Part shown: in pieces, positions 6,896 through 33,150 of the stretch
Position numbering within the stretch: the first letter of the stretch is position 1
How the letters are laid out: each line of letters opens with the position of its first letter
Source of the DNA: a virus
DNA length: 38,399 bases
IMG/VR virus record: IMGVR_UViG_3300018049_000053
Span: 1-38,399 of that record
Direction: 5' to 3' (one strand)
Translations under genes and position numbers: made by a program
The notes under the pieces: generated by a model
Told to the model about the DNA's origin: nothing
The model's input: only the letters and a program-made list of their open reading frames with translations
Databases searched by the model: none

Positions 6896-9800
6896 ATGTC
6901 GTCCACAGATAGACAAAACAGATTATTACTAGCAGAAGATTGGAAGCGAGTTTATCAAACGTTCCGCAATGCTGATTTTCAGAGCTATGATTTTGACAAT
7001 TTACGTCGAACAATGATTAATTACCTCCGTGAGAATTATCCGGAGGACTTTAACGATTATATTGAATCAAGTGAATACCTTGCACTTATTGATCTTATTG
7101 CTTTCCTAGGTCAAAATATTGCATTCCGTGTTGATTTAAACTCTCGTGAAAATTTTCTTGAACTTGCTGATAGACGAGAAAGTGTACTACGTTTAGCAAG
7201 GTTGCTTTCTTATAATCCTAAGAGAGTACAAACTGCAAATGGTTTATTAAAAATTTCTAGTGTAAGAACTACTGAAGAAGTATTTGACAGTAATAACGTA
7301 AATTTACAAAATCAAACTGTTGTATGGAATGATCCTGCAAATGCTGATTGGAATGAGCAATTTACTAAAGTATTAAATGCTTCATTACCGGTAAATTCAA
7401 CAGTTGGAAGGCCTGTTAAAAGTTCAGACGTTAACGGTATACCAACGCAACAATATAGACTTAATAGTACAAATACAGATTTACCGGTATATAGTTTTAC
7501 CAAAACAATAGATGGTAGGGCAACAAGATTTGAAATTGTATCAACAGATATTTCTAACGATAATATAGTTGAAGAATCACCATTTCCAGGAAATAATTTA
7601 TCAATACTTTATAGAGATGATGGAAGAGGACCTTCAAGTTCTAATAATGGATATTTTTCACACTTTAGACAAGGGTCATTAGAAGAAGGGTTGTTCACAG
7701 TAAATAATCCAATATCAAATCAAACAGTTGCTATTGAAGCTCCAAATATTAATAATAACGATGTTTGGTTATATAGTTTAGATAGTTTTGGTAATGAATC
7801 GTCTTTATGGACTAAGGTTGATGCATTAGAAGGTAACAATGTTATCTATAATAGTGTGTCAAAAAAGAATAGAAAAATTTATAGTGTTTTAACAAGAATA
7901 GACGACAGAATTAACTTAGTTTTTACTGATGGAGTATTTGGCGATCTTCCTAAAGGTTCATTTAAAATATTTTATAGAACTAGTCGAGCAGATAGAGTAA
8001 TTGTCACACCAGAAGATATGAGAGGTGTTTCGATAACAATTCCATATTTAAGTAGACTTGGTAGAGAAGAAGAAATTACTATTACCTACGAATTAAAATA
8101 TACAGTAGATAATAGCAGTCCTAGCGAATCTAGTGATAGTATTAAGCGTAATGCTCCGTCTACATATTACACACAAAACAGGATGATAACGGGTGAAGAT
8201 TACCAAGTTGCTCCTTTAGGAATCAGTCAAGAAATTATTAAATCTAAAGCAGTTAATAGGACATCAAGTGGTATTTCAAGATATTTTGATTTAATTGATG
8301 CTACAGGAAAATATAGCCAAACAACATTATTTGGAAACGACGGTGTTGTATATAAAGAATATTTAAATCTACTAAAAACTTTTACATATACAACTAGAAC
8401 AGATGTCGAAGGCGCAGTAGAAAATATATTAACCCCTATTCTTAATAATAAAAAATTAAGAAACTACTATCACGATAGTTTTCCAAAGGTATTAACAGGT
8501 GACTTAGGAGTTAATTGGGTTCAAACAACAAATGAAACTAATTTAAGCACCGGATATTTTAAAAACAGAGAACAAGTAAAAAGTAAACTAGGTAGTTTTA
8601 CTGAATCTATATTAAAATTAGTAAAACCAAATAATATGGTTAAACTAGAAGCTCCTGCAGGTTTTTATTTTGATACTAGTTTTGAAAATCAAATTAAACA
8701 ATTACCTACTTCAGGAAAACTTCCAAAATTTGGTGTATTTTATAAATGGGTTAAAATTATTAGTGTAAACGGAACTGGTGTTGAAGACACCGATGACGGA
8801 TACGGACCAGTTTCGTTTAATGATATAATTCCTACAGGAGCATTATTAGTAGAGATCAAACCTACTCTACCTTCGGCATTAACTGACGAAGTTAAAACAC
8901 AGGTTATAGATCAAATATTTGCAAATAAAACCTTTGGCATTAGATTTTCTCAGAATGACGGTGAATGGAGAGTTATTACTGAAAATAACTTAAACTTAAC
9001 AACTGAGTTTTCTACTGGTAAAACAGGAGATGCAACTAATCAAAATCTTGACTCGAGTTGGTTGTTAAACTTTAAAACTGACGGAGAAAAATATACTATA
9101 GTGTATCGAGCAATGAGATATGTTTTTGAAAGCGATAATGAAATAAGATTTTATTATGATAGTAGCGATAAAATTTATAATACAAAAACAGGAAAAATTG
9201 TTAAAGATAAAATAACAGTTTTAAGTATCAATACCGCACCTGATATTTCTGAACCATTTACAGTTGACTATGATTGGGAAATAGTAGAATCATACAGAGA
9301 TGCTGAAGGGTATGTCGATAGTAAAAAGATAGAAGTTAGTTTTTATGATGACGACGAAGATGGTGTAGTTGATAATGTTGACATTTTTGACGATATTGTT
9401 GCTTATGATTCACTAGCATCTTTAGAAGAACTTAGAAAAAAATATGTTATCTTTAAAAGATATTTAACAGATGACGGTGTTGAAGATTTTAATTATTTTT
9501 CAAATGCAAACCAAGATATTTTAATTTATAAATCAAAAGCATCATTTGTAGAACCATTAAGTACAATCGATGATGGAAAAATATTGTATTACATAGAGGA
9601 CGATATTTTTGAAATTTGGGATAAAACAAATAATGTGTTAACATTAACTACAGACTATAAAGCTCGCATTGGCCGCGACGATATAAAATTTAGATATGTT
9701 CACGCCGCTGATCAAAATTCGAGAATTGATCCTAGTTCGAGTAATATTGTTGATTTATACTTGTTAACAAAAACATATGACACTGCATTTAGACTCTGGC

Positions 9801-10345
9801 TAACTGAAGAAATCATATCTAAGCCGTTGCCTCCAAGTAGTGATAGTTTGTTTATTCAATATGGATCTCAACTAAATCAAATTAAATCACTTAGTGATGA
9901 AATTATTATTCATCCGGTTAAGTATAAAATACTGTTTGGAGAAGAAGCGTCAGATGATTTAAGATGTAAATTTAAAGTAGTTAAAAATCCTGATGCTGTT
10001 TTAAATGATAATGATATTAAAGCTAGAGTAATAGCAAGCATTAGTCAATTTTTTGCATTAGAAAATTGGGATTTTGGAGAACCATTTTTCTTTTCAGAAC
10101 TTTCAACATATGTAATGCAACAGCTATCACCTGATGTAGTAACATTTGTTATAGTTCCGTATCAGGATAGTCAAACATTTGGTTCATTATATGAAATAAA
10201 ATCAGAAGCTGATGAAATATTCATTAGTGGAGCATCTGTTAGTGACATTGAAATTATTGATGCAGTAACAGCATCAAGATTAAAGGCATCCGGAAATGTT
10301 GTAACAACTTCTACAACAAATAATACAGGTATACAAAGTAGATAA
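6896..10345 (+). CDS. 6: baseplate wedge protein gp6
   Basis: This 1,149-residue protein is the wedge protein that forms the continuous inner ring of the T4 baseplate. The N-terminal region is strongly conserved: DFDNLRRTMINYLRENYPED, then YIESSEYLALIDLIAFLGQ and SRENFLELADRRESVLRLA, the standard gp6 start. The end of the protein contains a baseplate-J-like region (KARVIASISQFF, FFFSELSTYVMQQL). T4 gp6 is 660 residues, so this one is enlarged by roughly 490, largely in the middle (about 560-950), which is rich in Asp, Tyr and Ser and unlike the core. It has its own late promoter and AGGAAAG ribosome site. The giant gene follows after 15 nt. Confidence 0.85.
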   Translation: MSSTDRQNRLLLAEDWKRVYQTFRNADFQSYDFDNLRRTMINYLRENYPEDFNDYIESSEYLALIDLIAFLGQNIAFRVDLNSRENFLELADRRESVLRLARLLSYNPKRVQTANGLLKISSVRTTEEVFDSNNVNLQNQTVVWNDPANADWNEQFTKVLNASLPVNSTVGRPVKSSDVNGIPTQQYRLNSTNTDLPVYSFTKTIDGRATRFEIVSTDISNDNIVEESPFPGNNLSILYRDDGRGPSSSNNGYFSHFRQGSLEEGLFTVNNPISNQTVAIEAPNINNNDVWLYSLDSFGNESSLWTKVDALEGNNVIYNSVSKKNRKIYSVLTRIDDRINLVFTDGVFGDLPKGSFKIFYRTSRADRVIVTPEDMRGVSITIPYLSRLGREEEITITYELKYTVDNSSPSESSDSIKRNAPSTYYTQNRMITGEDYQVAPLGISQEIIKSKAVNRTSSGISRYFDLIDATGKYSQTTLFGNDGVVYKEYLNLLKTFTYTTRTDVEGAVENILTPILNNKKLRNYYHDSFPKVLTGDLGVNWVQTTNETNLSTGYFKNREQVKSKLGSFTESILKLVKPNNMVKLEAPAGFYFDTSFENQIKQLPTSGKLPKFGVFYKWVKIISVNGTGVEDTDDGYGPVSFNDIIPTGALLVEIKPTLPSALTDEVKTQVIDQIFANKTFGIRFSQNDGEWRVITENNLNLTTEFSTGKTGDATNQNLDSSWLLNFKTDGEKYTIVYRAMRYVFESDNEIRFYYDSSDKIYNTKTGKIVKDKITVLSINTAPDISEPFTVDYDWEIVESYRDAEGYVDSKKIEVSFYDDDEDGVVDNVDIFDDIVAYDSLASLEELRKKYVIFKRYLTDDGVEDFNYFSNANQDILIYKSKASFVEPLSTIDDGKILYYIEDDIFEIWDKTNNVLTLTTDYKARIGRDDIKFRYVHAADQNSRIDPSSSNIVDLYLLTKTYDTAFRLWLTEEIISKPLPPSSDSLFIQYGSQLNQIKSLSDEIIIHPVKYKILFGEEASDDLRCKFKVVKNPDAVLNDNDIKARVIASISQFFALENWDFGEPFFFSELSTYVMQQLSPDVVTFVIVPYQDSQTFGSLYEIKSEADEIFISGASVSDIEIIDAVTASRLKASGNVVTTSTTNNTGIQSR

Positions 10346-10360: not shown

Positions 10361-13300
10361 ATGGCTTACGAAAACGATCAGACTGAATTTCCGCTACCAG
10401 GAAGCAATTCGAGCGATAGAAAAAGTGAAAATCACTTACCTAAATATTTTAGAACTGAAGCTAATAGTAAGTTTTTATCAAGCACTATTGATCAGTTATT
10501 AAAGCCTGGAGTTGCTGAAAAGTTAAGCGGTTATTTGGGACGAAAAACAGCAAAATCTTATGTTGCAGGCGACAATTACATTCCTGATGTTTCAAAACAA
10601 CGAGAAGACTATCAGCTAGAACCTGCACAAATTATTAAAGATGATATCGGAAACGTAGAATATTACAAAGACTATTTAGATTTAGTAAACCAAATATCAA
10701 ACTTTCAAGGAACTAATAATAATCACAATAGAATAAATGAGCAAGAGTTTTATACTTGGAATCCTCATATAAATTGGGATATGTTTACAAACTTCCGTGA
10801 ATATTATTGGTTACCTGCTGGCCCACAAACAGTTACTATTCCTGGCGAACAAAAAGAAATTACAAGTACATATACTGTAACACTACAAAATAACGGCGAC
10901 AGTTATTCTTATTTGTTCACTCCAGACGGAGCAACCCCTAATCCTAGTTTAAAATTATATAGAGGTGTTAAGTATAGATTCGAAATTAATACACCCGGAC
11001 TTCCATTAACATTTAGAACGCAAAGAACACTAGATGATCAGTTTTTGCTTGCTGAAGGTATATCAGCACAAGAAGTTGAAGACGGAGTTATTGAACTAGA
11101 ATTAAATGCAGGAACTCCTAATGAAATATTTTATGTATCTAACAATGACATTAACCTAGGCGGAATAATACGAGTAGCAAATATTACTGATGCCACGTTT
11201 ATTGATGTTACATCAGAAATAATAGGTAAAAAATATTATACAACTAGAGACGGATGGTCATTAACTAACGGAATGAAAGTTAGATTTAGTGGAGATGTAA
11301 CTCCGTCACAATATGCTAATTCAGAGTGGTATATTGAAGGTGTTGGAGATAAAATTACATTAGTGTCTGATACTGATGTAGAAGTTTCTTTCCCTGTAGG
11401 AATTGATTTAGAAGTACCATTCGATGCTGAAGAAGGATTTGACAGATTACCTTACGGTGAGGCAGTTGGATATCCTAAGAATAAAGATTATATTGTTATC
11501 AATCGTTCATCAATTGACGGCAATTTTTGGTCAAGATACAATAGATGGTTCCATAAAGAAGTTATTGAACTGAGTGCAAGTATTAATAATCAACCTGCAG
11601 ATATAGACCAAACAGCCCGTGCTAATAGACCAATTATTGAATTTGATGCAGGCCTTAAGTTATTCGAGTTTGGCACTATTTCGAAGCCTGTAGTTGATCT
11701 TATCGATACAATAACAACCGATGCCTTTTCAAATATAGAAGGAAAATTAGGATACAATATTGATGGTGTAACTGTAACACAAGGTATGAGGATTTTATTT
11801 ACTGCTGACCCTGACCCTCTAGTTTACGGTAAAGTTTTTCAAGTAGAATTTATAAACTTTAAAGGTAGCGGAACTGCTGGCCAAATTAGTTTAAAAGAAG
11901 TTGCAGACACAGATCCAGTTAAAGATGAAAACGTGTTGATTATTTCCGGAGAAAAATATTCTGGATCAATTTGGTATTATAACGGAGAAAAATGGCTACA
12001 AGGTCAAGAAAAGACTGCTGTTAATCAGGCACCACTATTTGATGTGTATGACAGTGACGGAAATTCATTTAGTGATAGTTCGGTATATGATGCAACAACT
12101 TTTAAAGGTACAAAGATTTTTAGTTATAAGGAAGGTTCGGGTGCTAACGATAGTGTTTTAGGTTTTCCTTTAAGTTATAGAAGCATTGACAATGTTGGAG
12201 ATATCTTATTCAATTTTGATTATAATACAGATATGGTTGATTATCAAGTAGAAACTCAATCTCAACAAGTTGAAGTTGCTTCTGGATATTTAAGAAAATA
12301 CAGCACAAGAACTGACTACATACAAGAAGGTGCTTGGATTAAAGCAAATGAGTTATCTAATCAATCAGTAATTATACAATATGAAAATGATAATACTAGA
12401 ACAGTGTATCCGATTAACTGTTTTGATAAAAGTGCATTTATTGATGATTTAGAAATAAAAGTTTTTGTTAATAATAAAATCTTAAGACAAGGAATTGATT
12501 ATCAAGTACTTAATACTGCTGATAAATTTAAAGCAATAACCTTAGAGAAGTCAAATATAGGAGATATTATTAGAATTAAATGCAATAGTAGTACTCCTAA
12601 AAATGATAATGGCTTTTATGAAATTGCTCCTAACCTTGAAAGAAATCCATTAAATGCAAATGTTCAAGATTTTACACTAGGTGAAGTTTCAGATCACGTA
12701 TCAACGATTGTTGAAAACATTCCAAATTTTGAAGGAATTTTTCCAGGAAGCACTAACTTAAGAGATTTACCAAATCAAAGCATATTTGGTCGAAAGTTTA
12801 TTAAGCATTCGTCACCATTAAACTTAGCAATGTATCATTTGTTAGATAAAGATGCAAATATAGTTAAGTCTTTAAGATTTGCACGTAGAGAATATGGTAA
12901 GTTTAAAAGACAGTTTTTAGAAATTGCAGAAACACTTGGTTTTGAAGGTCCTGTAAAACAACACGTAGACAAAATTTTGTCTGAAATAGTTAAAGATAAA
13001 ACTAATAAATTACCTTTTTATTTTAGCGATATGTTGCCTTTCGGAGCAGCCATAACTACAAGAATTACAGTAGAAGATCCAGATGCACAATTTTTTGCAT
13101 TATCACAACCTTTTGAATATAATAAAATTAATACTAAAGCAGTAAGTGTTTATATTAATAATGAACAACTATTATATAAAAGAGATTACGAATTTAATGA
13201 AAACGGATTTCTTATAATTACAAAAGAAAAAACATTTAATGATGTAATTGAAATCTATGAATATGAGAGTACAAATGGTAGCTATGTACCGCCTACTCCA

Positions 13301-16300
13301 ACTAAATTAGGTTTGTATCCTAAATTTGAACCTAGGATTTATACTGAAAATTCATATCAAACTCCAACGCAAGTTATTGAGGGTCACGACGGAAGTATCA
13401 TAAAAGCATACGGAGATTTTAGAGATAGTTTAATATTAGAACTTGAAACTCGTATTTTCAATAATATAAAAGTTGATTACGATCCTAATCTATTTGACAT
13501 TAACGATTTTATTAAAGGTAGCTTTAGAAAACAAGGTCTTACAAGACAAGTAATTAATAAGACAATGACTACTGATTTTATACAGTGGCTTCAACTTGTT
13601 AATGAAGATTACACTAAAAACGAATATGTCGAAACAGGAAACGGGTTTACTTATAATTATGCTAATATGACAGGTCCGGGCGGAACACAACTACCTGGCT
13701 TTTGGCGAGGAATATATAAAGAAGTTTTTGATACAGATCGCCCGCACACTCATCCTTGGGAAATGTTAGGTTTTAGTATAAAACCAAATTGGTGGGAAAC
13801 TGTTTACGGTCCTGCTCCTTATACTAATGAAAATTTATTATTATGGGAAGACTTAGAAACAGGAACAATTAGAGAACCAGGAAAGCCTTTTGTTTTTAAT
13901 CAAAAATACAAAAGACCAGGACTAAAGAATTTTATTCCAGTTGATAGCAATGGAGAACTATTAGATCCTTCGAGTGCTAATGTGCCTTTAAAATTTGAAA
14001 ATTTAAAAATTAATTCTACTTATGAGTTTGGTGATTATGCTCCTGTAGAGCTTGCTTGGAGGAAAAGTTCTGAATATCCATTTGCATTACTTACAAGTTT
14101 TGCAGTAAATCAACCTGCAAAATTATTTGCAAGTGGATTTGATAGATCGAGACAAGTTAGAAATACAATTGGACATTTAGTATATGCTGAAACAGGTCAT
14201 CATATAACTTTAAAAGATATTGTATTTCCAAATACACCAGACGATGATTCAGAAGTGTTAACTTTAGGATTAGTAAACTATATTGCAGGCTATATGTCAT
14301 CAAATGTTACTAGTAATTTTAAAATTTACAATGAGAGATTAAAAAAGATAAAAAATTCTTTGGCTTGTAAATTAGCTGGATATACAGACAAATCTAAATT
14401 TAAGTTAATACTTGATAGTAGAACTCCTGTTAACAAAAGTAACGTGTTTATTCCTGAAGAAAATTATCAAATTATTTTAAACACAAGTTCTCCTATTAAA
14501 ACTGTTAACTATAGCGGCGTTATTATTGAAAAACAACCTTCAGGGTTTATAATTAGGGGCTATAATAATGATAATCCACAATTTAGTTATTACCCAACGT
14601 TTAAGACATCAAAAGATCCTATAATTAACGTCGGAGGAATATCGGAACCTTATTCTCAATGGGAAGCAGGTCAATTGTATAGAGAAGGAACTAATGTAGA
14701 ATATACTGATGATTATTTCAAAGTTGTTAGCACTCATACATCAACTGCTACATTTGATAATACTAAGTTTGTTAGATTACCAGAATTGCCACTCGAAGGA
14801 GGAAAAACAGCAGTCTTTAGTAAAAAGTTTTTAACTGACGATGTGTCAACCTTACCATACGGTTCAGTTCTTAATACAATACAAGATGTTGTAGACTTTT
14901 TATTAGGTTACGGCAGATGGCTAGAAGACCAAGGATTTAAATTTGATTATTATGACGGCGAAGAAAAGATTTTATCTAACTGGACTAATAGTGCAAAAGA
15001 ATTTTTGTTCTGGACAACACAAAATTGGAAAGCAGGTTCAGTTATAAGTTTAAGTCCTGCGGCAGAGCAAGTTAAATTAGAAACAGAATACTCAGTTGTT
15101 GATAATGTGTTTGATAACTTTTATGGATATTCTATTTTAAGAGCAGATGGTAAGAAGTTAGTAGAAGAATTTACAAAAACAAATAGAACTGATCCTAATA
15201 AATTTACAATGCGTCCAAGAAACACTATAGATGGTGTTTATGCAATAAATCTACCTATAGTACAAAAAGAACATATACTATTAATTGATAATTTTACAGT
15301 TTTTGGAGATGTAATTTATGATCAGCCAACTGGTTATAGACAAGAAAGAATTAAGGTTTTAGGATATCGTACAGATACCTGGGATGGTAGTTTAAATATT
15401 CCAGGATTTATATATGATGATGCTAAAGTTTTAGAATGGAAATCGTGGACAGATTATCCAATTGGTGCGTTAGTAAAATATAAAGAATTTTATTACACTG
15501 CTAAAACAAAAATAAGTGGCGAACAAAATTTTGATCGCAACAAATGGTCTGTATTGTCAGAAAAACCTCAATCAGGTCTATTGACTAACTTTGAATATAA
15601 AACAAATCAGTTTGCAGATTTTTACGATTTAGACAGTGATAACTTTGATATTGAACAACAAAGATTTGCGCAACACTTAATAGGATACCAAAATAGAGAG
15701 TATCTATCTAATATTATTAATGACGATGTTTCGCAATATAAATTTTATCAGGGAATGATACAAGACAAAGGCACCAAAAACGCACTTGTTAAATTATTTG
15801 ATGTATTAAGTGCTGCCGATAAAGAAAGTTTAGAATTTTATGAAGAATGGGCTATTAAAGAAGGACAGTACGGAGCGTCAGACGGATTTGAAGAAGTTGA
15901 ATTTAGACTAGATGAAAATAAATTTAAAATTAGTCCACAGCCTTTTGAACTTGTAACTAACAATAATAATGATTCTGGAGATTTAATATATAGAATAAAA
16001 CCGTTCGAAGTATTTAAAAAACCAAATAATTATAACCACAAGCCTATTCCTGTTAAAGAAAATTTACAAAGAACTTTTACTAAAGATGCAGGATTTGTTC
16101 ATCAAGAAGATGTTACATTCATTTTAAATAACTATGATAGCATTTTATCACTTAATGTAACTGATTTAAGAAATGAAGAATACATTTGGATAGGAACAGA
16201 AAAGCAGTCTTGGAATGTTTATCAGCACGTTTTATCAGATTTTGTTATTAATAAAATAGAAGGAAATTCAGAAGCAGTTGCTATTGGAGATCCAGATCAA

Positions 16301-19300
16301 AATCAGTTTAAAGTTTCAATTACTACTTCGTTTGACGATGGATCAATTAAGGTGGGTGATATTATTGGAATATACGATATTATTACAACAAATCGTACAT
16401 CAGTAAATAACTCTCAAATTAAATCACAAACTACAAATGACGTACAAGGATTTTTCAAAGTATTAGAAGTAGGTACAGATAACCTTACTATTGAAACAAC
16501 ACAAACAATTAATGATGTTGTCGATTGTAGAGGACTTTTAACACGGTTTGAGTCTGTTAGGGTTTCGGATTTAAATAGTGCAAATGTTTTAACAGAGAAA
16601 GAAATTAATGAAGGTAATTTAGTTTGGTTAGACGATGACGGCACAGGTAATTGGGCTGTATTAAAAAATTCTCAGGCATATAAATTCCTACAAAAAACTG
16701 TATCCGATACAACTTCAGATATTGGATACGGTAAGTCAATAGACGCTGATAATAGAAATACTGTACTTGCAGTTGGATCACCAAATGAAGACAACGGTAA
16801 GGTTTACATTTATACAAGAGGTATAGATTCCCAAAACTGGCAATATGCACAAACTTTAGAATTAGATGCAACATTTAGTGACGATGAACATAAGTTTGGT
16901 TCTAGTTTAGGAATATCCGCGGATGGAGATTATTTGGTTGTTGGTTCCCCTGAAGCATCAAACGTAAAAACTAAATTCAGAGGTAATTTTGAAAATGAAA
17001 CAAATTATCAAAATGGTGAATCTGTTAAATATAGCGATCAACTATGGGAAGCAGTGGTTGATATTAAAGGCGCAGTAGAGGCATTACCGTTTACTACCTT
17101 TGGATCTATTGCAGAAGTTTATCAAAAAAATAACGTATTTTTTAACGAAGAAACTTTTAATTCTATATTAACTGGTAATTATCCTTTCGAGAATATTCAA
17201 CCACCAGAAGATCCAGTAGATCATTTCTTAGTAAGAGCGCCAGTTGATCAATATGATGCAACTGGCCCAGGAGATACTGTATATTTTGATTGGTATAGAA
17301 ATTCAACTGTAAACTTAATAGATACAGGGGTATTAGAAAGAGAAGTTTTTGATGGAGAGTATAGCTCTGTAATTAATGAATCAGTTTTAGAATCAGGATT
17401 GGTGATACAAAAGAAAATAGATGCAATTTTATATCTTTCAACATATGTAAACAGACCAACACTTGATGCTCAAGTTGACGGACCATCGGTATTTGGCTAT
17501 GCTACTAACATTTACGAATATGACGGAGCACTTTCTATATATGTTGAAGGATCATTTGGATCTTGGCCAACTGAAGGTGCATTGTATTTAGAATCTGGAG
17601 AATATGTTGGCCAGTTTACTAAAAGAGCACCGGTAGAAACAATTGATACCTCAGATGATCTTGGTGGTTATTGGCTCTTTAATGCACCATCAACTTATTA
17701 TGTAACCGATGTAACAGACGATACAGGTAAAGCACTAGCAGTTTATAATATCGTTCCTCAAGGAAAATCAAATATTGATGCTCGTGGTGGGAATATATAT
17801 GATCAAAATAATCCTGTTACTTTTGAAAGTATTCCACAATGGATACAAAATGGTACTGGTAATAGTTTAAATGATTTTAACAGTTATATTAGAAATCTGT
17901 CGTATCAGGGAACACCCGGCGCAGGAGGATTAACCAATGACCCAAGATTTACTGACTTATTTGTAGTAAGAGCACCAAAGTCAGTAACTGATGTAGTACA
18001 AGCAGGTGATACAGTTAATTTAGAAATATTCCAGTTTCCAGATGCTGATAATAACTTAATTGCAGATCTACGAACAACTGGATTAACAGTTGAAGATACA
18101 AATAAAGCACATACGTTGTATGATAACTGGGACGGCTTTATCAACTATACACTTAAAGGTTCATTCGAACCTAGAATAGGTCAGTTTGTTAGAGACTCAG
18201 TAACACTAGCAACAGCCCAAGTTGTATTTTATCAACGTGATGGATTAAATGCAACGGTCTTTATTAAAAATAATACTCCAGGAACATTAGGTAACTGGCA
18301 AAAAGGTTTAGAGTTTGGTGAAGCGTCAGTTATCCAGATGCTTGGAACAGCAGGCGATCCAGACCCAATTTTTGCTGTAACACAAGAGTTGGGAGATGTT
18401 AGATCAGTTTCAATTGGTAACGATTCTTTAGGAATCGGCGGCTTATTAGTTTTCCAGAGAACAGCTGGCCAGTTTACAGAAATACCTGCTAATGAATATG
18501 TTGTTGGTTTAGAATATCTTGTTTATAGAGACGATACAAACTTTGGAATACCTACAGAACCAAATATTCCGTCAATACAAAACTTTGACTGGCGCCCGAT
18601 ATATAAAATTCCTGCAGATGCAGAAGGCTATCAAATTGCCGGAAATAATCAAGGTATGTTTTCGGTATATGAAAGAAGTTTATCTAGTAATTATACCAAG
18701 ATTGGTACATTTATTGTACCAGAACAAGAAGAAAATCTTCGTTTAGGGTCTAATATTAAAATTAGAAAAAATAAAGATCTTTATAAAACCTTTATAGGAT
18801 GTCAAGGAGAAGGAAATTCAACCTTGCCAGGAAGAATTTATTTTTATAATTACGGAACAACGCCGGATGGTGATTTTTATAATTGGGAACTAGCAAAGAA
18901 CAAAAACTATAAAGGAGAATTTTCTCCTGAGAAAGACTATTTTATAGATGATATTATATTTTTAGATGGTAACTTTTATAAGGCAGTAACAAATATTGCA
19001 GGTAATCCTGACGATCCTGATGATTATAGATTTGCATTTGATCCTTTAGATTGGGAAAGAATAGCATATGACGGTGCAGGATATACAGGTATTGACTATG
19101 TAGGATATATTCCTAATGATACTGATTTTGTTCCTAATAGTGATTCTACATTTAAACTAAGTCAAGTAGGCCTAGAAGAATTTGGAACAGTATTTGATGT
19201 AGATGAGCGAGGCGAAGTATTAATAGTAACTGCAAAATATGACAGTGACAATGTTAATAAAGTTATTGTTTATAGAGCATTAAATGGAAATTATTTAAAA

Positions 19301-22300
19301 TATCAAGAAATTGACGCATTTGATACATTAGAAGACTTTGGAGATACAATATCAATATCTGCTGATGGAACTATGCTTGCAATAGGCTCTCCTTCTGCTG
19401 ATGAAAACAAAGAAGGACTTGTGTATGTTTATTTGCAAGAAAATGGAAACTTTAATCTAATACAAACTTTAAAAAGTACAAACGCTTCTAGAAAAGAAGC
19501 ATTTGGAAGCCAAATTGATTTTGATGGCAATACATTATTTGTTAGTGCTAACAAATCTTATTCAGATGAAATAACTATTTTTGATCAAGGCAAAACAACA
19601 TTTGACAACGAATTTACCGAATTTAAAAATAAAATAATTGGTAACGGTGTAATTTATGTTTATGATAGAGTTAACAACGGCTTAGTATTTGGACAAGTTA
19701 TTGATTATAATAATACCGAAGCAAGGTTGTTTGGAGAAACTATCATTGCAAGAAATAATCATATCTATACAGGTATGAGAGACTTTGTTAATACAGATAA
19801 TAAAGTTGGCGCAGTATTAGATTATAGAAGAGACTCTAATAACAGAGTTTGGACTAAACATAGAACTCCAAATAAATTACCTGATCTAGAAAAGATTAAA
19901 AAAGTATTTTTATATGACAATGATAAAAATGAAATTATAACTCATTTAGATTACATTGATCCTATCCAAGGTAAAATTGCTGGACCAGCAGAACAAGAAC
20001 TTAGATATAAAACTCCTTTTGATCCTGCTTCATATAATATCGGTGATAATACAGTTAATGTTAGCAGTATAGATACCTGGGGAACATATCAAGTTGGCCA
20101 ACTATGGTGGGATTTAAGCACAATTAAGTTTTTTAATCCGCATCAAGGTTCTAAAACTTATTCAGGAAATACTTGGAATAAATTATTCCCTGGATCAAGT
20201 GTAGATGTTTATGAATGGGTCGAAACTGAATTAACACCAGGACAGTGGGACGCACTGGCAGCAACTGAAGAAGGTCAGTCTTTGGGTGTAACAGGAAGAT
20301 CAAAATACGGTGATAGTGTTTTTGTAACTAAAAAGGTATATGATTCGATTGCACAAGCATTCTTTCCTAAGAACTATTTTTGGGTTAAAAATAAAACAAA
20401 TGTTCCTGATGTAGAATGGAGATCAATTAGTGCAATTGATGTAGCAAGATTTATTGAAGATCCTGCCGCAATGAAACACGAATATATTACTTTTACCGAA
20501 GACGATGCATTTATTTTATGGAACTGTAATTCTTTTATTAAAGGAAAAGACACTGTATTGAATATACAATACTGGACAAGTTCTGACAAAGACAGTAATA
20601 TACACAATCAATATCAAATTTTAACAGAAGGATTATCAACAAGTAAGCCAACACCAGATATTGAACGTAAATGGTTTGACAGTCTTATAGGTTATGATCA
20701 GCAAGACAGACCTGTTCCTAATCCTGAATTGTCGCCAAGACAGCGTTACGGTATGCTAGATAAACCAAGACAAGGGTGGTTTATTAATAGAATAGAAGCA
20801 TTAAAGCAATTTATAGAAAGAACTAACAGTGTTCTAGAGAAAAATCTAATAGTTGAATCGAGAGACATATCTCCATTGAATGCACTAGATGATTATCCAA
20901 GTGAAATAACAAGGAAATATGATCTAGTAGTAGATACTGACATTGATTTACAGTTTGTTGGTACTGCTCGAGCCGATCGAGCAGAACTTTCTCTAGTAAT
21001 TGAAAACGGAAAAATACAACGTGTTGATATTTTAAATTCTGGTAGAGGATATAAAGTAGTTCCGACTATTGAAATATTAGGAACTGGATCCGGCGCAGAA
21101 ATTGAACTAACAATTAATAATATAGGACAAGTTACATCTGCTACAGTTTTAAATAGCGGAAATAATTATTCTAATAATGCAAGAATTATTGTAAGAAGAT
21201 TTACAGTACTTGTTAAGTCTGACTCAACAATTAGAGGCAAATGGGCACTATACGAAAGAATTGACGAAACATCTAGCTGGAATAGAATATCAAGTCAGGC
21301 ATATGATGTAACTAGTTTTTGGAAATATAAAGACTGGTACGACACCGGGTATAATGAATTTACAGACATTAATTATGTTGTAGATTATAGTTATAACTTA
21401 CAAGGGTTAGATGATAACTTAGGTGATATTGTTAAAATTAATAATATTGGATCAACAGGATGGATATTATTAGAAAAAATTGACGAACAACAAACAGTTG
21501 ATTATACAGTAAATTATAAAACTATAGGTCGACAAAATGGCACAATAGAATTTTTACCTGAGCTTTACAATCTAGAAGGAAGCCAAGTAGGTTTTGATGC
21601 ACAAAGTTATGATACAAAATTCTTTGATAATCAGCCTGTAGAAGAAATACGTGTAGTTCTTAATACTTTAAAAAATAATATTTTAATAACAGATCTAGAA
21701 GTAGAATTTAATAAATTATTCTTTGCAAGTTTACGTTATGTATTTTCAGAGCAAGGTTATGTTGACTGGGCATTTAAAACATCATTTATCAAAGCTCAAC
21801 ACAATGTAGGTGAGTTGAAACAAAAACTAACATATCAAAATGATAACTTAGCTAGTTACCAAGATTATCTTGAAGAAGTTAAACCTTACAAGACAAAACT
21901 TAGGGAGTATGTTTCAAACTATAATAATATAGAAAATTCTTCTAGCATATTAACTGACTTTGATTTACCTCCTGCATTTGATAGTAATGATAATAGAATT
22001 AAAGCACCAAGTATCAAAGTTTTTGATGAAAAGTTAGTAGGAACAGCAGAAAACATTAATTTGTATCCGAACAAGTTTTGGCTCGATAATGTAGCATTTG
22101 AAGTAGTTGAAATAGGAATAGCTGACCCAGGCGAAGGTTATATAACTGCTCCTATTATTACTATTGAAAGCGAATCAGGTTCTGGAGCAAAAGCATTAGC
22201 ATCTTTAGGACCTAACGGTTCTATTTCATCAGTTAAACTTGTATCTAATGGTTCTAATTATTTAACTTTACCTAAAGTAGTAGTAAATGGATCATTAAAA

Positions 22301-25300
22301 GACAACGGTCGACCAGCAGTATTAGCCGCTAGAATTGGAAATTCTTTAATTAGAAGTATGCATTCTGTTATTAAATTTGACAGAGTAAGCGGGTCATTTT
22401 TAATAACAGAGCTAGATTTTAGTGAAACATTTATAGGCACAGGATCTAAGACAGAATTTGACTTAGAGTTTCCGATGGATATGAGAACTAATACTATTGA
22501 AATTACAATTAACGGAACAGCAATACTAAGCAGTCAATATACATATGAAAATGTACTTGATACAACAGTTAATTATGATAGATATTTTGGTAGAATTAAG
22601 TTTTTAACTCCTCCAGGAAATGCAAGAGAAATTGTTGTTAATTACAAAAAGTCAATAGACTTATTAACAGCTTCAGATAGAATAAATTTATTCTATAATC
22701 CAACTACTGGACAAATAGGTAAAGATATTAATCAATTAATGGACGGTGTTGATTACGGTGGTGTACAAGTTAAGAGTTATGGATTTGCAGGACCACAAGG
22801 TTGGGATAGTGATAATTGGTATGATAATGCTTGGGATTTATTTGACGAATCATTTGATGAAGAATCATTTTTACTAGACGGTTCTACGTTAACATTCCAG
22901 CTATCAAAACCTCTCGCAGAAAATGTTCAATATAATCTTTATATCAATGGAATTCGTATTGATGACGCTGAGTACGATGGCACAACTAATACTTCAAATC
23001 TTCAAAATACTCGTGCTATTATGGCATCACCTGAAGGTGATGGTGTAACTACAATAGTAACTATTGATAATGAAATTGGTTATGAAGAGTTTATAGAAAA
23101 ATATGGAACTGATACAAACTTACTTATAATTCGTAGAAGTACAACTGACGGGTCACTTCAGTTAAATCAAGAAAGTTATGATACTTCCTTAGGCGGTGGC
23201 GACTTAGCATATTCAACTGCCAAAGGTTTAGATGCAAACGAAATAACTGTTGATGGCGATGGATTTGTAACAGCTACAACTTCAAAAGGTCCTGAAGAAG
23301 TTATACCAGGACAAGTAATGGATACATTAGATATTAATGTATATGAAAGACCATCTGAAGGCTCTAGCCTAATTTATAATACAAATCATAGAGGGGACGG
23401 AGTAACTACTGATTTTGCTATTGAAGGAATTCCATTTAGTTTTGAATCAATGTTTGTAAAAGTAGATTACGAAATTTTAACAGAAAGATCAGATTTTATC
23501 ATTGACTACAATAATAAGAAAATTAAATTTTTCACAGCACCTAGTAATGGTGCAGTGATTCAGTTATTATCAATGGGAGTATCTGGAACACAAGTTTTAG
23601 ATTATGATTCTTTTGTAGCAGATGGAACATCTTCAGAGTTTTTAACAAATGTTAGATGGGACAACAATAGGTCTGCTTATGTAACAGTAAATGGCAAAAA
23701 TAAACCGTTTGAACTTTTTGAATCTGATAGTGGATATGCAGTTAAAGGAAATGTTGTTATTAAGTTTGTTGAACCTCCAGTTGCAAACACAAAAATACAA
23801 TACGCATTATTTGATTCAAAAGTACAAACATTCAGCCAAGTAACAGTTGACAAATTAATAGCAGATGGAAGTTCTACAGTATATGAAATTAGTCAAGCAC
23901 CGTTTGATCAAGAACCGTCGGCTTTTTATACTATTGTTACAGTTAACGGAAAAGTACTAAATCCTGGTTATAGTCAAAAATTTGAAGTAACAAGTGATAG
24001 AGAATATCAGTTGAAAAAATGGCAAGTTCCAGTTGGAAGTTTAAGCGGAGACAGAATTGAAGTTTATCTAAATGGAAGAAAATTAAGTTTCTTACAAGAA
24101 TGGACTTATGAAGGTTCAGGTGCGTTTGACCCTAACATTGCTGATGACGCACAGCCGGGAAGTACTATTGTATTAAATAGAGGTGTTGGAGTAGCAGGAG
24201 ATAGTTTAACAGTTTATTTAATGAGCGACGGCGAATATAGATTTGGATACTTTGAAATAGGTGAAGATTCAAGTGATACTTTTGTTCAAACACCGAGCAG
24301 TATACATTTTGACGAAGTATATGCTGATGGTTCAGATATTGTTGTATATCAATTTAGTAATCACGATAGTCAGGGCATAGAGCGTATGAATTACGATGTA
24401 ATAGAACGCACTACGATGACTCCGGGTACTGAAGGATATTCAGAATTTAGACAATTGAAAAATGGCTTAATTAAACTAAGAGCCGAAGCGTTTGATGTTT
24501 CTTATGTTTGGGTATCGTTAAATGGCAAATGGTTAATTCCTACAGCAGATTATATTTTAACTGAAAATAAGCAATACATTAAATTTGTAACACCAATTAA
24601 TGATAATGATGTAGTCGATATCATACAGTTTGCTAATGCTCCTATATCAAATAAATTTGGTTGGAAAATCTTTAAAGATATGACTAATAGATATTTCTTT
24701 AAGAGATTAGAGCCAGGCACTATTGAATTAGCAGAAGATTTAAGATACTATGATAAAACTATTACAGTCAATGACGGGTCTTTATTAACTTCTCCACTAG
24801 CAAAATCTAAAATTCCTGGAGTTATCTTTATTGAAGGCGAGCGTATTGAATATTTTGGCAGAGACGGAAATGTACTAAAACAAATTAGAAGAGGAACTTT
24901 AGGAACAGGAGTTAAGTCAGTTTATGATGCAGGAACATCAGTAATTAGACAAAGTCAAGAATCTGTTATTCCTTATAATGAAGATACTTTAGAAATTGTT
25001 TCAACATCTGGTGTATATAAAGATATGTCTGAAGAATATTCTAATAGTCCGTTAATAACTTTTGATAATCTTACATACACATTTAACAATAATTCTGCTT
25101 TTCCACTAGGTGGATTAGTTAATGGAGCTGTATTACAAGAAGGAGTAATAAAAGGAAGTGGGTTTAGATCTGTTGCAAAAGTATTTGTTCAAGATATTGA
25201 GTGTACAACTACTTTTGTAAGTACAACTGAATTACGATTTGTTCCACCAAAATTAGATGTAGGAGCGTACGATCTAGTTATTTACAACCCTAGAGAAGAA

Positions 25301-26062
25301 AGTCCTATTGAGATTCCTTCTACAGCATTAGTAGTTCCAAAAGTAGTTGAATATTTACAGATATTATTACCATTTGCTCCGCTACCAAACCCTGCGACAG
25401 AGTTTAATTGGTATAAAGAAACTGTTGATTTGCCTGTAACAGAAATAATTCCAGGAAGATATTATCGTGTTAAGAGTTTAGGTACTACTAATTGGTCTGA
25501 GGTAGGGTCTTCTGCTACTATAGGCTATGAGTTTAAAGCAACTGCTACAGGTACAGGTACAGGAATAGTCGAAGACTTTTCTAGTATACCATACGAATAT
25601 TGGGAAGGAATGGATATAGATATGTTTATTAGTGGTAGACGTTTACGTAAAAATCCACTAACATATTTTGATCCGGCTATTGGACAAGATAGTGTTAACG
25701 GAAATGTTACTCTTGAAGCAGAATATGCAGTAAATAGAGCAATCGGAGCATATGTAAGATTAACAAATCCGCCAGAACCAAATGTTAAAATTATTATTTC
25801 TAAGAAAACAGGGTATTCTTGGAATGAAATTAATAATATTTCCAACGGTCCTTACAAACTTAATTTTAAAGAAACCGTTGATTATAGCAAAGGAGAGGTT
25901 GTTTTATACAACGGAAAATTCTACGAAGCATTGCAAGATATTTTAGCAAGTTCTTGGGATGAAACAAAATGGAAAAATGTATCAATTATGAGTCCTTTAG
26001 GAAAATCTGACACACAGATTGCAAAATTCTTACGTAAGACAAGTATTGATCTACCGCGATAA
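10361..26062 (+). CDS. giant multidomain virion protein, in the gp7 position
   Basis: One uninterrupted frame encodes 5,233 residues, directly after gp6 where T4 has gp7 (1,032 residues). The N-terminus (PKYFRTEANSKFLSSTIDQL) resembles starts of large structural proteins in marine T4-like phages. Visible modules: carbohydrate-binding (CBM5/12)-like units near residues 1431-1477, 1695-1737, 2215-2239, 2854-2900 and 5173-5207; FG-GAP-like propeller blades at about 2115-2205 and 2935-3150; two 'GSGY' beta modules at about 3541-3607 and 3917-3980; 'DG' beta modules from about 4025 to 4760; an IPT/TIG-like domain near 4900-5000; and a small NWSEVGS/GTGTG motif near 5030-5069. No catalytic motif was recognised. 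A peripheral baseplate or host-contact role is inferred. TAAGG lies 10 nt before the ATG. Confidence 0.8.
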   Translation: MAYENDQTEFPLPGSNSSDRKSENHLPKYFRTEANSKFLSSTIDQLLKPGVAEKLSGYLGRKTAKSYVAGDNYIPDVSKQREDYQLEPAQIIKDDIGNVEYYKDYLDLVNQISNFQGTNNNHNRINEQEFYTWNPHINWDMFTNFREYYWLPAGPQTVTIPGEQKEITSTYTVTLQNNGDSYSYLFTPDGATPNPSLKLYRGVKYRFEINTPGLPLTFRTQRTLDDQFLLAEGISAQEVEDGVIELELNAGTPNEIFYVSNNDINLGGIIRVANITDATFIDVTSEIIGKKYYTTRDGWSLTNGMKVRFSGDVTPSQYANSEWYIEGVGDKITLVSDTDVEVSFPVGIDLEVPFDAEEGFDRLPYGEAVGYPKNKDYIVINRSSIDGNFWSRYNRWFHKEVIELSASINNQPADIDQTARANRPIIEFDAGLKLFEFGTISKPVVDLIDTITTDAFSNIEGKLGYNIDGVTVTQGMRILFTADPDPLVYGKVFQVEFINFKGSGTAGQISLKEVADTDPVKDENVLIISGEKYSGSIWYYNGEKWLQGQEKTAVNQAPLFDVYDSDGNSFSDSSVYDATTFKGTKIFSYKEGSGANDSVLGFPLSYRSIDNVGDILFNFDYNTDMVDYQVETQSQQVEVASGYLRKYSTRTDYIQEGAWIKANELSNQSVIIQYENDNTRTVYPINCFDKSAFIDDLEIKVFVNNKILRQGIDYQVLNTADKFKAITLEKSNIGDIIRIKCNSSTPKNDNGFYEIAPNLERNPLNANVQDFTLGEVSDHVSTIVENIPNFEGIFPGSTNLRDLPNQSIFGRKFIKHSSPLNLAMYHLLDKDANIVKSLRFARREYGKFKRQFLEIAETLGFEGPVKQHVDKILSEIVKDKTNKLPFYFSDMLPFGAAITTRITVEDPDAQFFALSQPFEYNKINTKAVSVYINNEQLLYKRDYEFNENGFLIITKEKTFNDVIEIYEYESTNGSYVPPTPTKLGLYPKFEPRIYTENSYQTPTQVIEGHDGSIIKAYGDFRDSLILELETRIFNNIKVDYDPNLFDINDFIKGSFRKQGLTRQVINKTMTTDFIQWLQLVNEDYTKNEYVETGNGFTYNYANMTGPGGTQLPGFWRGIYKEVFDTDRPHTHPWEMLGFSIKPNWWETVYGPAPYTNENLLLWEDLETGTIREPGKPFVFNQKYKRPGLKNFIPVDSNGELLDPSSANVPLKFENLKINSTYEFGDYAPVELAWRKSSEYPFALLTSFAVNQPAKLFASGFDRSRQVRNTIGHLVYAETGHHITLKDIVFPNTPDDDSEVLTLGLVNYIAGYMSSNVTSNFKIYNERLKKIKNSLACKLAGYTDKSKFKLILDSRTPVNKSNVFIPEENYQIILNTSSPIKTVNYSGVIIEKQPSGFIIRGYNNDNPQFSYYPTFKTSKDPIINVGGISEPYSQWEAGQLYREGTNVEYTDDYFKVVSTHTSTATFDNTKFVRLPELPLEGGKTAVFSKKFLTDDVSTLPYGSVLNTIQDVVDFLLGYGRWLEDQGFKFDYYDGEEKILSNWTNSAKEFLFWTTQNWKAGSVISLSPAAEQVKLETEYSVVDNVFDNFYGYSILRADGKKLVEEFTKTNRTDPNKFTMRPRNTIDGVYAINLPIVQKEHILLIDNFTVFGDVIYDQPTGYRQERIKVLGYRTDTWDGSLNIPGFIYDDAKVLEWKSWTDYPIGALVKYKEFYYTAKTKISGEQNFDRNKWSVLSEKPQSGLLTNFEYKTNQFADFYDLDSDNFDIEQQRFAQHLIGYQNREYLSNIINDDVSQYKFYQGMIQDKGTKNALVKLFDVLSAADKESLEFYEEWAIKEGQYGASDGFEEVEFRLDENKFKISPQPFELVTNNNNDSGDLIYRIKPFEVFKKPNNYNHKPIPVKENLQRTFTKDAGFVHQEDVTFILNNYDSILSLNVTDLRNEEYIWIGTEKQSWNVYQHVLSDFVINKIEGNSEAVAIGDPDQNQFKVSITTSFDDGSIKVGDIIGIYDIITTNRTSVNNSQIKSQTTNDVQGFFKVLEVGTDNLTIETTQTINDVVDCRGLLTRFESVRVSDLNSANVLTEKEINEGNLVWLDDDGTGNWAVLKNSQAYKFLQKTVSDTTSDIGYGKSIDADNRNTVLAVGSPNEDNGKVYIYTRGIDSQNWQYAQTLELDATFSDDEHKFGSSLGISADGDYLVVGSPEASNVKTKFRGNFENETNYQNGESVKYSDQLWEAVVDIKGAVEALPFTTFGSIAEVYQKNNVFFNEETFNSILTGNYPFENIQPPEDPVDHFLVRAPVDQYDATGPGDTVYFDWYRNSTVNLIDTGVLEREVFDGEYSSVINESVLESGLVIQKKIDAILYLSTYVNRPTLDAQVDGPSVFGYATNIYEYDGALSIYVEGSFGSWPTEGALYLESGEYVGQFTKRAPVETIDTSDDLGGYWLFNAPSTYYVTDVTDDTGKALAVYNIVPQGKSNIDARGGNIYDQNNPVTFESIPQWIQNGTGNSLNDFNSYIRNLSYQGTPGAGGLTNDPRFTDLFVVRAPKSVTDVVQAGDTVNLEIFQFPDADNNLIADLRTTGLTVEDTNKAHTLYDNWDGFINYTLKGSFEPRIGQFVRDSVTLATAQVVFYQRDGLNATVFIKNNTPGTLGNWQKGLEFGEASVIQMLGTAGDPDPIFAVTQELGDVRSVSIGNDSLGIGGLLVFQRTAGQFTEIPANEYVVGLEYLVYRDDTNFGIPTEPNIPSIQNFDWRPIYKIPADAEGYQIAGNNQGMFSVYERSLSSNYTKIGTFIVPEQEENLRLGSNIKIRKNKDLYKTFIGCQGEGNSTLPGRIYFYNYGTTPDGDFYNWELAKNKNYKGEFSPEKDYFIDDIIFLDGNFYKAVTNIAGNPDDPDDYRFAFDPLDWERIAYDGAGYTGIDYVGYIPNDTDFVPNSDSTFKLSQVGLEEFGTVFDVDERGEVLIVTAKYDSDNVNKVIVYRALNGNYLKYQEIDAFDTLEDFGDTISISADGTMLAIGSPSADENKEGLVYVYLQENGNFNLIQTLKSTNASRKEAFGSQIDFDGNTLFVSANKSYSDEITIFDQGKTTFDNEFTEFKNKIIGNGVIYVYDRVNNGLVFGQVIDYNNTEARLFGETIIARNNHIYTGMRDFVNTDNKVGAVLDYRRDSNNRVWTKHRTPNKLPDLEKIKKVFLYDNDKNEIITHLDYIDPIQGKIAGPAEQELRYKTPFDPASYNIGDNTVNVSSIDTWGTYQVGQLWWDLSTIKFFNPHQGSKTYSGNTWNKLFPGSSVDVYEWVETELTPGQWDALAATEEGQSLGVTGRSKYGDSVFVTKKVYDSIAQAFFPKNYFWVKNKTNVPDVEWRSISAIDVARFIEDPAAMKHEYITFTEDDAFILWNCNSFIKGKDTVLNIQYWTSSDKDSNIHNQYQILTEGLSTSKPTPDIERKWFDSLIGYDQQDRPVPNPELSPRQRYGMLDKPRQGWFINRIEALKQFIERTNSVLEKNLIVESRDISPLNALDDYPSEITRKYDLVVDTDIDLQFVGTARADRAELSLVIENGKIQRVDILNSGRGYKVVPTIEILGTGSGAEIELTINNIGQVTSATVLNSGNNYSNNARIIVRRFTVLVKSDSTIRGKWALYERIDETSSWNRISSQAYDVTSFWKYKDWYDTGYNEFTDINYVVDYSYNLQGLDDNLGDIVKINNIGSTGWILLEKIDEQQTVDYTVNYKTIGRQNGTIEFLPELYNLEGSQVGFDAQSYDTKFFDNQPVEEIRVVLNTLKNNILITDLEVEFNKLFFASLRYVFSEQGYVDWAFKTSFIKAQHNVGELKQKLTYQNDNLASYQDYLEEVKPYKTKLREYVSNYNNIENSSSILTDFDLPPAFDSNDNRIKAPSIKVFDEKLVGTAENINLYPNKFWLDNVAFEVVEIGIADPGEGYITAPIITIESESGSGAKALASLGPNGSISSVKLVSNGSNYLTLPKVVVNGSLKDNGRPAVLAARIGNSLIRSMHSVIKFDRVSGSFLITELDFSETFIGTGSKTEFDLEFPMDMRTNTIEITINGTAILSSQYTYENVLDTTVNYDRYFGRIKFLTPPGNAREIVVNYKKSIDLLTASDRINLFYNPTTGQIGKDINQLMDGVDYGGVQVKSYGFAGPQGWDSDNWYDNAWDLFDESFDEESFLLDGSTLTFQLSKPLAENVQYNLYINGIRIDDAEYDGTTNTSNLQNTRAIMASPEGDGVTTIVTIDNEIGYEEFIEKYGTDTNLLIIRRSTTDGSLQLNQESYDTSLGGGDLAYSTAKGLDANEITVDGDGFVTATTSKGPEEVIPGQVMDTLDINVYERPSEGSSLIYNTNHRGDGVTTDFAIEGIPFSFESMFVKVDYEILTERSDFIIDYNNKKIKFFTAPSNGAVIQLLSMGVSGTQVLDYDSFVADGTSSEFLTNVRWDNNRSAYVTVNGKNKPFELFESDSGYAVKGNVVIKFVEPPVANTKIQYALFDSKVQTFSQVTVDKLIADGSSTVYEISQAPFDQEPSAFYTIVTVNGKVLNPGYSQKFEVTSDREYQLKKWQVPVGSLSGDRIEVYLNGRKLSFLQEWTYEGSGAFDPNIADDAQPGSTIVLNRGVGVAGDSLTVYLMSDGEYRFGYFEIGEDSSDTFVQTPSSIHFDEVYADGSDIVVYQFSNHDSQGIERMNYDVIERTTMTPGTEGYSEFRQLKNGLIKLRAEAFDVSYVWVSLNGKWLIPTADYILTENKQYIKFVTPINDNDVVDIIQFANAPISNKFGWKIFKDMTNRYFFKRLEPGTIELAEDLRYYDKTITVNDGSLLTSPLAKSKIPGVIFIEGERIEYFGRDGNVLKQIRRGTLGTGVKSVYDAGTSVIRQSQESVIPYNEDTLEIVSTSGVYKDMSEEYSNSPLITFDNLTYTFNNNSAFPLGGLVNGAVLQEGVIKGSGFRSVAKVFVQDIECTTTFVSTTELRFVPPKLDVGAYDLVIYNPREESPIEIPSTALVVPKVVEYLQILLPFAPLPNPATEFNWYKETVDLPVTEIIPGRYYRVKSLGTTNWSEVGSSATIGYEFKATATGTGTGIVEDFSSIPYEYWEGMDIDMFISGRRLRKNPLTYFDPAIGQDSVNGNVTLEAEYAVNRAIGAYVRLTNPPEPNVKIIISKKTGYSWNEINNISNGPYKLNFKETVDYSKGEVVLYNGKFYEALQDILASSWDETKWKNVSIMSPLGKSDTQIAKFLRKTSIDLPR
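17219..18160 (+). repeat. diverged internal duplication in the giant protein
   Basis: Residue 2287 begins DHFLVRAPVD and residue 2532 begins DLFVVRAPK. Each is followed by a GDTV strand (PGDTVYF and AGDTVNL). Further on, each copy has a GSF motif (VEGSFGSWP near 2397, LKGSFEPRI near 2600). The copies start 245 residues apart, but the later motifs are about 203 apart, so the duplication is old and has unequal insertions. Both copies lie inside the segment that interrupts the propeller. Confidence 0.5.
22433..24640 (+). repeat. array of six DG-type beta modules in the giant protein
   Basis: A short motif recurs at residues about 4025 (IGTGSKTEF), 4172 (LDGSTLTF), 4345 (GDGVTTDF), 4419 (VADGTSSEF), 4500 (IADGSSTVY) and 4654 (YADGSDIVVY). 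Most copies continue with a VNG or NG turn about 20-30 residues later, and several then show a hydrophobic IxF-xxPP strand. Spacing is 75-175 residues. This looks like tandem beta-sandwich modules, typical of an extended fibre. Confidence 0.55.
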
Positions 26063-26083: not shown

Positions 26084-26698
26084 ATGGCAGACAATTTTAA
26101 AGATACAAATGGCATTTTATTAGAAGGACACATAAAGATCCACGACCCAAATAGTGGTGAAGTTCTTATTAATAAACGTAATGCTATTCACTATGAGAAT
26201 ATGAGTATATCGTTAGCTGAAAGTTTAGCAAACGCTGGACAAGGTTGGATACACGAAATGAGCTTTGGCAACGGAGGCACAAGTATAGATCCTACAGGAA
26301 TTATTACTTATTTGACTCCAAATAGTACTGGTACTAATGCAAGTTTATATAATCAAACTTTTACTAAAGTTGTAGATGATAGAAGTGTTAATAATATTGA
26401 TCCTGTCCGAAATAAAATTGAAACACGACACGTAAGTGGTACTAATTATACAGATATATTAGTAACTTGTTTGCTAGATTACGGTGAGCCAAATGGTCAA
26501 GATGCTTTTGATACAGCATCTGGTACTGAAAGTTTATATGTATTTGATGAATTAGGTTTAAAAAGCTATTCACCAACTGGTGACGGAAGATTATTAACAC
26601 ACGTTATTTTCCATCCTGTACAAAAGTCGTTAAACAGATTAATCCAAATTGATTATACTGTTAGAGTACAAAGTTTAACCGGATTTAATGAGGCGTAA
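26084..26698 (+). CDS. conserved virion structural protein of marine T4-like phages
   Basis: This 204-residue protein has the motifs IHDPNSGEVLINKRNAIHYEN, MSFGNGGTSIDPTG and FDELGLKSYSP. Its closing segment LLTHVIFHPVQKSLNR is typical of a protein found next to tail-fibre genes in marine T4-like phages, by memory of that family. No enzymatic motif is visible. Its position between the giant baseplate protein and the fibre genes suggests a peripheral baseplate or fibre-attachment role, which is inference. It begins after a late promoter and AGGATA, and the next gene starts 2 nt after its stop. Confidence 0.65.
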   Translation: MADNFKDTNGILLEGHIKIHDPNSGEVLINKRNAIHYENMSISLAESLANAGQGWIHEMSFGNGGTSIDPTGIITYLTPNSTGTNASLYNQTFTKVVDDRSVNNIDPVRNKIETRHVSGTNYTDILVTCLLDYGEPNGQDAFDTASGTESLYVFDELGLKSYSPTGDGRLLTHVIFHPVQKSLNRLIQIDYTVRVQSLTGFNEA

Positions 26699-30680: not shown

Positions 30681-30688
30681 TGAAAGTA

Positions 30689-33147: not shown

Positions 33148-33150
33148 CAG

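Follow-up and report, generated by a model that had tools for sequence, protein, structure and literature searches.

A giant gene in the gene 7 position of a jumbo-phage-type baseplate cluster: a probable enlarged counterpart of the T4 wedge protein gp7

The window, by which we mean the whole stretch of DNA that was analyzed, comprises the whole of one 38,399-base IMG/VR fragment (IMGVR_UViG_3300018049_000053). PHROG and Pfam matches give its baseplate genes in the order gp53, an 810-aa protein, gp5 hub, gp25, gp6 and then a giant. The gp53 baseplate wedge gene lies at 2192..2494 (+; Pfam Phage_gp53 and phrog_7145), and the gene for the 810-aa virion protein (2498-4930) separates it from the gp5-like baseplate hub gene at 4930..6375 (+; phrog_13211). 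The gp25 wedge gene follows at 6393..6842 (+; Pfam GPW_gp25, E 2.4e-9), and the 1,149-aa gp6-like wedge gene at 6896..10345 (+; phrog_10646, E 1.9e-293) is immediately upstream of the giant. The giant gene itself spans 10361..26062 (+) and encodes 5,233 residues with a calculated mass of 590.9 kDa. Directly downstream is the gene for a 204-aa protein (26084..26698, +), which is conserved in the same jumbo phages. The hub protein is short, at 481 aa, and matches no lysozyme family; the RaK2 hub has 886 aa and a lysozyme domain.

In T4 the order is gp6, gp7, gp8, gp9, gp10. Standing directly after gp25 and a gp6-like gene, the giant is therefore in the place of T4 gene 7, as the original prediction had proposed. 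The position is a stable one: a giant gene begins within 500 nt downstream of a gp6-like gene in 64 of 72 loci, the exceptions being mostly truncated loci. SCTP-2 departs from this order, its gp6-like gene lying at a distance from the giant.

A gene of this size invites suspicion, and the frame stands up to it. It is a single open frame that stops only at its end and is free of ambiguous bases; shuffling the window 20 times produced no open reading frame longer than 158 aa. GC content is 0.14-0.20 at third codon positions throughout and 0.41-0.48 at first positions, so the full frame has a coding-like base composition. No tandem repeats were found, and dozens of contigs assembled independently carry the frame as well, so we rejected a repeat array or an assembly artefact. 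The claim of one stop-free 15.7-kb gene filling about 41% of the window holds in its coordinates, its length and its share (40.9%). A stop splitting the frame in relatives had been named as one result that would overturn it; ten relatives' records contain no interior stop. Overall dN/dS is 0.06 in one of two related pairs of giant genes and 0.14 in the other, and it never exceeds 0.23 in a 500-codon block; every block is thus under purifying selection, and the whole chain is maintained. The frame is real, intact, conserved and selected, and it sits in the gene 7 position.

The protein matches phrog_10938 with an E value of 3.8e-209, a family of 3,324 positions made up of virion structural proteins. 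A tblastn search with the giant protein matched 59 phage records, essentially all of them jumbo phages, among them RaK2/K64-1, 121Q/PBECO4, GAP32, CBB, Munch, PA5oct, Atu_ph07, Phosso, SCTP-2 and Vibrio 2.275; the homology that joins the giant to these records is block-wise. An affinity with Pelagibacter-type myophages, our first guess, was dropped when the relatives turned out to be jumbo phages. Homologues have 3,326 aa in RaK2, 3,340 in CBB, 3,771 in Vibrio 2.275, 3,807 in SCTP-2, 3,857 in PA5oct, 4,449 in Atu_ph07 and 4,555 in Phosso. A search of IMG/VR yielded 52 loci with a homologue; the complete environmental proteins have about 4,313-5,187 aa, and one that is incomplete at a contig edge already has 5,247, giving an overall range of 3,313-5,247 aa. 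In all the relatives listed, the matched region lies in one open frame. Homology, the post-gp6 position and a single frame of more than 3,300 aa all place the gene, as far as sequence comparison goes, in a family of giant virion proteins that is known but little described, and of which it is a new and long example.

The closest comparison is with the RaK2-type proteins of the family (RaK2 ORF070, CBB_236, phAPEC6 gp245, PA5oct gp355, Atu_ph07 gp180 and Phosso 294), which are homologous to the giant at residues 1-150, 375-1900 and 3150-3900. Both appear to be single large virion proteins in a post-gp6-like slot. The window protein is longer, however (5,233 versus 3,313-4,555 aa); it has a larger number of CBM5/12-like units, and residues 1950-3150 and 3900-5233 contain additional sequence. 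A 399,796-base IMG/VR contig that carries a relative has another giant frame, 4,122 aa long and bearing GxGY-type repeats, noted at about 359377-359607.

Is the protein part of the particle? Virion mass spectrometry has detected three homologues in particles, in agreement with the original prediction of a virion protein. For PA5oct gp355, the evidence is an ESI-MS/MS note in its own sequence record. CBB_236, which we identified as a homologue from its sequence record, was found in virions with 21 peptides (PMC5259590). In phAPEC6, the 381.9-kDa gp245 was found in virions with 17 peptides and is listed beside the baseplate-wedge protein gp244 (PMC7247149); from its size and gene position we infer that gp245 is the giant homologue. 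The giant is very probably a baseplate-associated virion structural protein. PHROGs files phrog_10938 under head and packaging, and CBB and phAPEC6 bear hair-like whiskers of unknown composition (PMC5259590, PMC7247149), so that a head, neck or tail-decoration protein, perhaps of the whiskers themselves, might be entertained. We think this highly improbable: the giant adjoins a gp6-like baseplate gene in nearly all loci, and the gene is equally present in RaK2-type phages, where whiskers are unreported (PMC5259590). The family belongs to the baseplate cluster, and its head-and-packaging category is probably misplaced.

How the chain is built can be read from an alignment of 26 full or near-full giant proteins, which served as our conservation map. 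Residues 1-150, 375-1900, 3150-3520 and 3650-3900 are universal in it, some 2,300 in total. Residues 3900-4875 are well kept within the environmental clade and align partially in cultured phages, while residues 1950-3150 and 4880-5233 are variable, with about 2250-2925 aligning in a minority of relatives only. About half of the giant is conserved scaffold, and much of the rest consists of accreted modules.

At the N terminus, alignment conservation defines a module at residues 1-150 (10361..10810, +) with the motif LPxxFRTExNxKFLxxTxDQL...YQLEP. Scaffold block A, residues 375-1900 (11483..16060, +), is common to RaK2, CBB, PA5oct, Atu_ph07, Phosso and SCTP-2, and scaffold block B, residues 3150-3900 (19808..22060, +), is common to RaK2-type phages. 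Block A contains the first two of five CBM5/12-like modules, at residues 1433-1473 (14657..14779, +; matching chitin-binding-domain structures) and 1692-1732 (15434..15556, +), followed by a candidate gp7/gpI-type core to which we return below. Modules 3 and 4 (the latter weak), at residues 2209-2238 (16985..17074, +) and 2854-2882 (18920..19006, +), fall in the variable region of residues 1951-3150 (16211..19810, +). This region also has FG-GAP-type propeller repeats, with an FG-GAP_2 repeat at residues 2992-3024 (19334..19432, +; Pfam E 5e-9). GxGY-type repeats, known also from the giant gp7 of cyanophages and from further families of phage neck and baseplate proteins, lie at residues ~3539-3616 and 3914-3975 (20975..22285, +). 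Toward the C terminus come a weak similarity to T4 gp10 at residues 4558-4760 (24032..24640, +; hhalign 41.6%), an IPT/TIG domain at residues 4929-4976 (25145..25288, +; Pfam E 3e-5) and the fifth CBM5/12-like module at residues 5168-5206 (25862..25978, +).

AlphaFold models residues 976-1735 with generally good confidence. Among PDB entries, Foldseek searches with residues 976-1960 hit chiefly chitin-binding domains, along with small chains of phage baseplates; among viral models they recovered the protein's own family. Sequence and profile searches of solved structures with the giant returned chitin-binding domains only. Domain searches found no catalytic family in the protein, so that the absence of a catalytic motif, remarked on at the outset, still stands beside several recognizable binding-type modules. 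Less durable was the picture of binding modules strung along the whole chain. The blocks common to all the jumbo phages (1-150, 375-1900 and 3150-3900) hold only two of them, and CBM5/12-like units number five in the window protein, two in most environmental homologues and none in RaK2, CBB and XacN1. The idea that the protein consists of such modules is therefore not borne out.

These observations bear directly on the role first suggested for the giant, a wedge fused to an arm and serving the baseplate as a large, multi-specific fibre for host contact. One chain does combine five CBM5/12-like units, FG-GAP-type repeats and a TIG domain, and the number and position of modules differ between relatives, as surface contact would predict. 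Against this, three homologues do without any CBM-like unit, and the greater part of the conserved sequence matches no binding family. Apart from the CBM5/12-like, FG-GAP, TIG and weak gp10-like modules, our searches of the giant found neither homology to known fibres nor a receptor-binding tip domain. Fibre-type genes, one with a tail-collar domain, are encoded separately downstream at 26701-32211, and in the RaK2 relative phiKp24 the branched fibre system has been modelled as joined to the baseplate by a different protein, gp306 (PMC9700779). We therefore regard the host-contact fibre as unlikely.

What we favor instead is a structural role. The giant is probably a baseplate protein of the contractile tail, a single chain that would correspond, in enlarged form, to the wedge protein gp7 of T4, to P2 gpI and to TssG of the type VI secretion system. 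T4 gp7 is a 119-kDa monomer present in six copies (PMC3004832), and T4 gp7, P2 gpI and TssG are thought to be related (PMC6300606). T4 gp7 shares with the giant the order gp25, gp6, gp7 and possibly a KG helix motif (T4 residues 734-756). At 1,032 aa, though, it is five times smaller, its profile similarity to the giant is insignificant, and a counterpart of its neighbor gp8 was not found in jumbo phages.

Direct searches for gp7 were largely silent. Windows of 500 residues compared with T4 gp6-gp12 profiles gave nothing significant apart from the weak gp10-type match, so of the similarities to gp7, gp8 and gp10 that the original prediction had proposed looking for, those to gp7 and gp8 failed to appear and that to gp10 survives as a weak match at the level of a module. 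The T4 gp7 profile scores below 2% in hhalign against the giant, and phrog_964 is silent in jumbo genomes. A search of seven relatives' genomes with the T4 gp7 PHROG, which has little power, detected no other gp7 gene. For gp8, the jumbo genomes gave only short matches, all within giant frames and all to that part of the profile which covers the GxGY repeats. Pfam Tail_P2_I hits neither the giant nor its relatives; it misses T4 gp7 too and is powerless as a test. A profile of the giant's core was silent on T4, P2 and cyanophage genomes.

The one positive signal comes from the candidate core, residues 1744-1833 (15590..15859, +), predicted to be helical in low-confidence models and bearing, from residue 1795, the motif FYQGMIQDKGTKNALVKLFDVL. 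The core carries YLSNIINDDVSQYKFYQGMIQDKGTKNALVKLFDVL, to be compared with DFYSTKGIEASYKFLFKVLY in T4 gp7, SFYQSKGSEESFKILFRVLY in cyanophage gp7 and FIHCHKGTIGAIRRVVEPLG in P2 gpI. This KGT helix motif, at residues 1795-1818, is a weak, in-register match to the gp7/gpI type. When 127 windows are compared with the cyanophage gp7 core, those over residues 1795-1820 take ranks 1-3; when 101 are compared with P2 gpI, they take ranks 1, 2 and 4, in register in both cases, with P-values of 0.006-0.018 (best 0.006-0.01) that are similar to the 0.007 of gpI against cyanophage gp7; the score of gpI with T4 gp7 is worse. When the cyanophage motif is run without gaps along the window protein, the site comes third of 5,191 positions. 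Scored against the T4 core, the motif comes no higher than 25th among 127 windows, and with the K-G columns masked the signal falls to about the top 1.4%. Because the search began after the motif had been spotted by eye, we have lowered its weight. With P2 gpI and TssG the giant may share an in-register KGT helix followed by a strand with EEW/EWW; gpI, on the other hand, has only 176 aa. AlphaFold models of the core, alone and in context, are of low confidence (pLDDT about 40-52; 52 for the core alone), as one would expect of a segment that needs gp6 in order to fold, though this is no proof of it.

A gp7 identity is suggested by the position of the gene together with a motif that falls short of significance. 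A skeptic might answer that the giant is a peripheral baseplate protein beside gp6 whose unrelated fold has replaced gp7 and gp8, with the KGT motif there by chance. The gp7 profile match is indeed not significant, nor is the motif signal when taken alone. Yet two different gp7-type families pick the same residues in register, and gpI scores no better against T4 gp7 or cyanophage gp7, even though gpI, TssG and gp7 are held to be related (PMC6300606) and cyanophage gp7 matches that of T4. To us this makes an unrelated fold rather unlikely, and we keep to the enlarged gp7 counterpart.

The cyanophages (Kyanoviridae) offer a parallel. In them the gene after gp6 is annotated as gp7 or wedge initiator and encodes 3,045 aa in S-CAM3, 4,225 in ACG-2014f and 7,312 in P-RSM3; these cyanophage proteins match T4 gp7. 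The P-RSM3 protein (record 7151-29089), annotated as 'similar to gp7', is larger than the window giant. The size of the window giant is thus not exceptional, with relatives reaching 5,247 aa and cyanophage genes in the gp7 position 7,312 aa. Like the giant, the cyanophage proteins follow gp25 and gp6 and contain GxGY-type and RGxxGT-type modules, and a KGT-type motif may be common to both. They differ in that homology between their scaffold and that of the giant is undetectable (the two N termini, too, show no significant homology), in that the gp7 anchor is near residue 200 (ACG-2014f, S-CAM3) or 700 (P-RSM3) rather than, as proposed for the giant, near 1800, and in that a gp8 gene comes next after gp7, where none was found in jumbo phages. 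A wider idea, which we put forward tentatively and with some doubt, is that a gp7-type wedge subunit has swollen to 3,000-7,300 residues through a shared pool of modules in two lineages, the RaK2-type jumbo phages with their environmental relatives and the cyanomyophages. The jumbo version would now serve as the platform in place of gp8 and further proteins of the wedge periphery, one chain per wedge organizing the rim of the baseplate.

How might the enlarged gp7 counterpart work? One copy per wedge would clamp the gp6 pair through its helical KGT region at residues 1744-1833, joining the two gp6 chains in the manner of (gp6)2-gp7 and (TssF)2-TssG, on which this step is modelled. The long conserved blocks could form the peripheral platform of the wedge, built in T4 by gp7 with gp8 and gp10. 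Since no separate gp7 or gp8 gene was detectable in the relatives searched, the giant may replace part of the gp8 platform too. The separately encoded downstream fibres would dock on this platform, and the CBM5/12-like, FG-GAP, TIG and GxGY modules, whose number and location vary, would decorate it, making weak contacts with glycans or surfaces or merely supplying bulk and spacing. Six copies of the 591-kDa chain come to 3.5 MDa, so the earlier figure of more than 3 MDa per baseplate at one chain per wedge is right as arithmetic, with the copy number itself assumed from T4.

Jumbo phages repeatedly have a giant gene behind gene 6, and these genes have been filed as hypothetical, as virion structural, even as head and packaging. 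What our analysis adds is the link between the phrog_10938 family, the gp7 slot and the giant gp7 of cyanophages, together with a named candidate core. Placement as a gp7-type wedge protein would give a testable role to one of the larger known phage proteins and a parallel to the cyanophage giants. It also suggests that in these phages the baseplate scaffold, besides the fibres, carries carbohydrate-binding-type modules.

The genes beyond the giant deserve a few words. The 204-aa neighbor is found in 60 records at up to 57% identity and is more highly conserved than the giant; our searches found it no relative of solved structure and no assigned function, and it is possibly a wedge partner. 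The PA5oct gene at its position is noted as found in virions. Of the three consecutive fibre-type genes that come next, whose N termini are related (phrog_15511, phrog_14394), the first ends in the tail-collar domain and the third has a C terminus with a weak match to Peptidase_G2 (autoproteolytic) and to cement proteins. Two proteins encoded at 32242-34239 have related MAVNxGxxI starts, and on the 399,796-base contig the gene after the relative's giant matches only the N-terminal 35 residues of T4 gp10; these starts and the gp10 match are possibly a common docking tag. Past the fibre genes, at 34647-38399, are proteins that by eye, and with no Pfam match, resemble glycosyltransferases and a radical-SAM protein; genes annotated as radical-SAM are found at a similar location in Atu_ph07 and Phosso.
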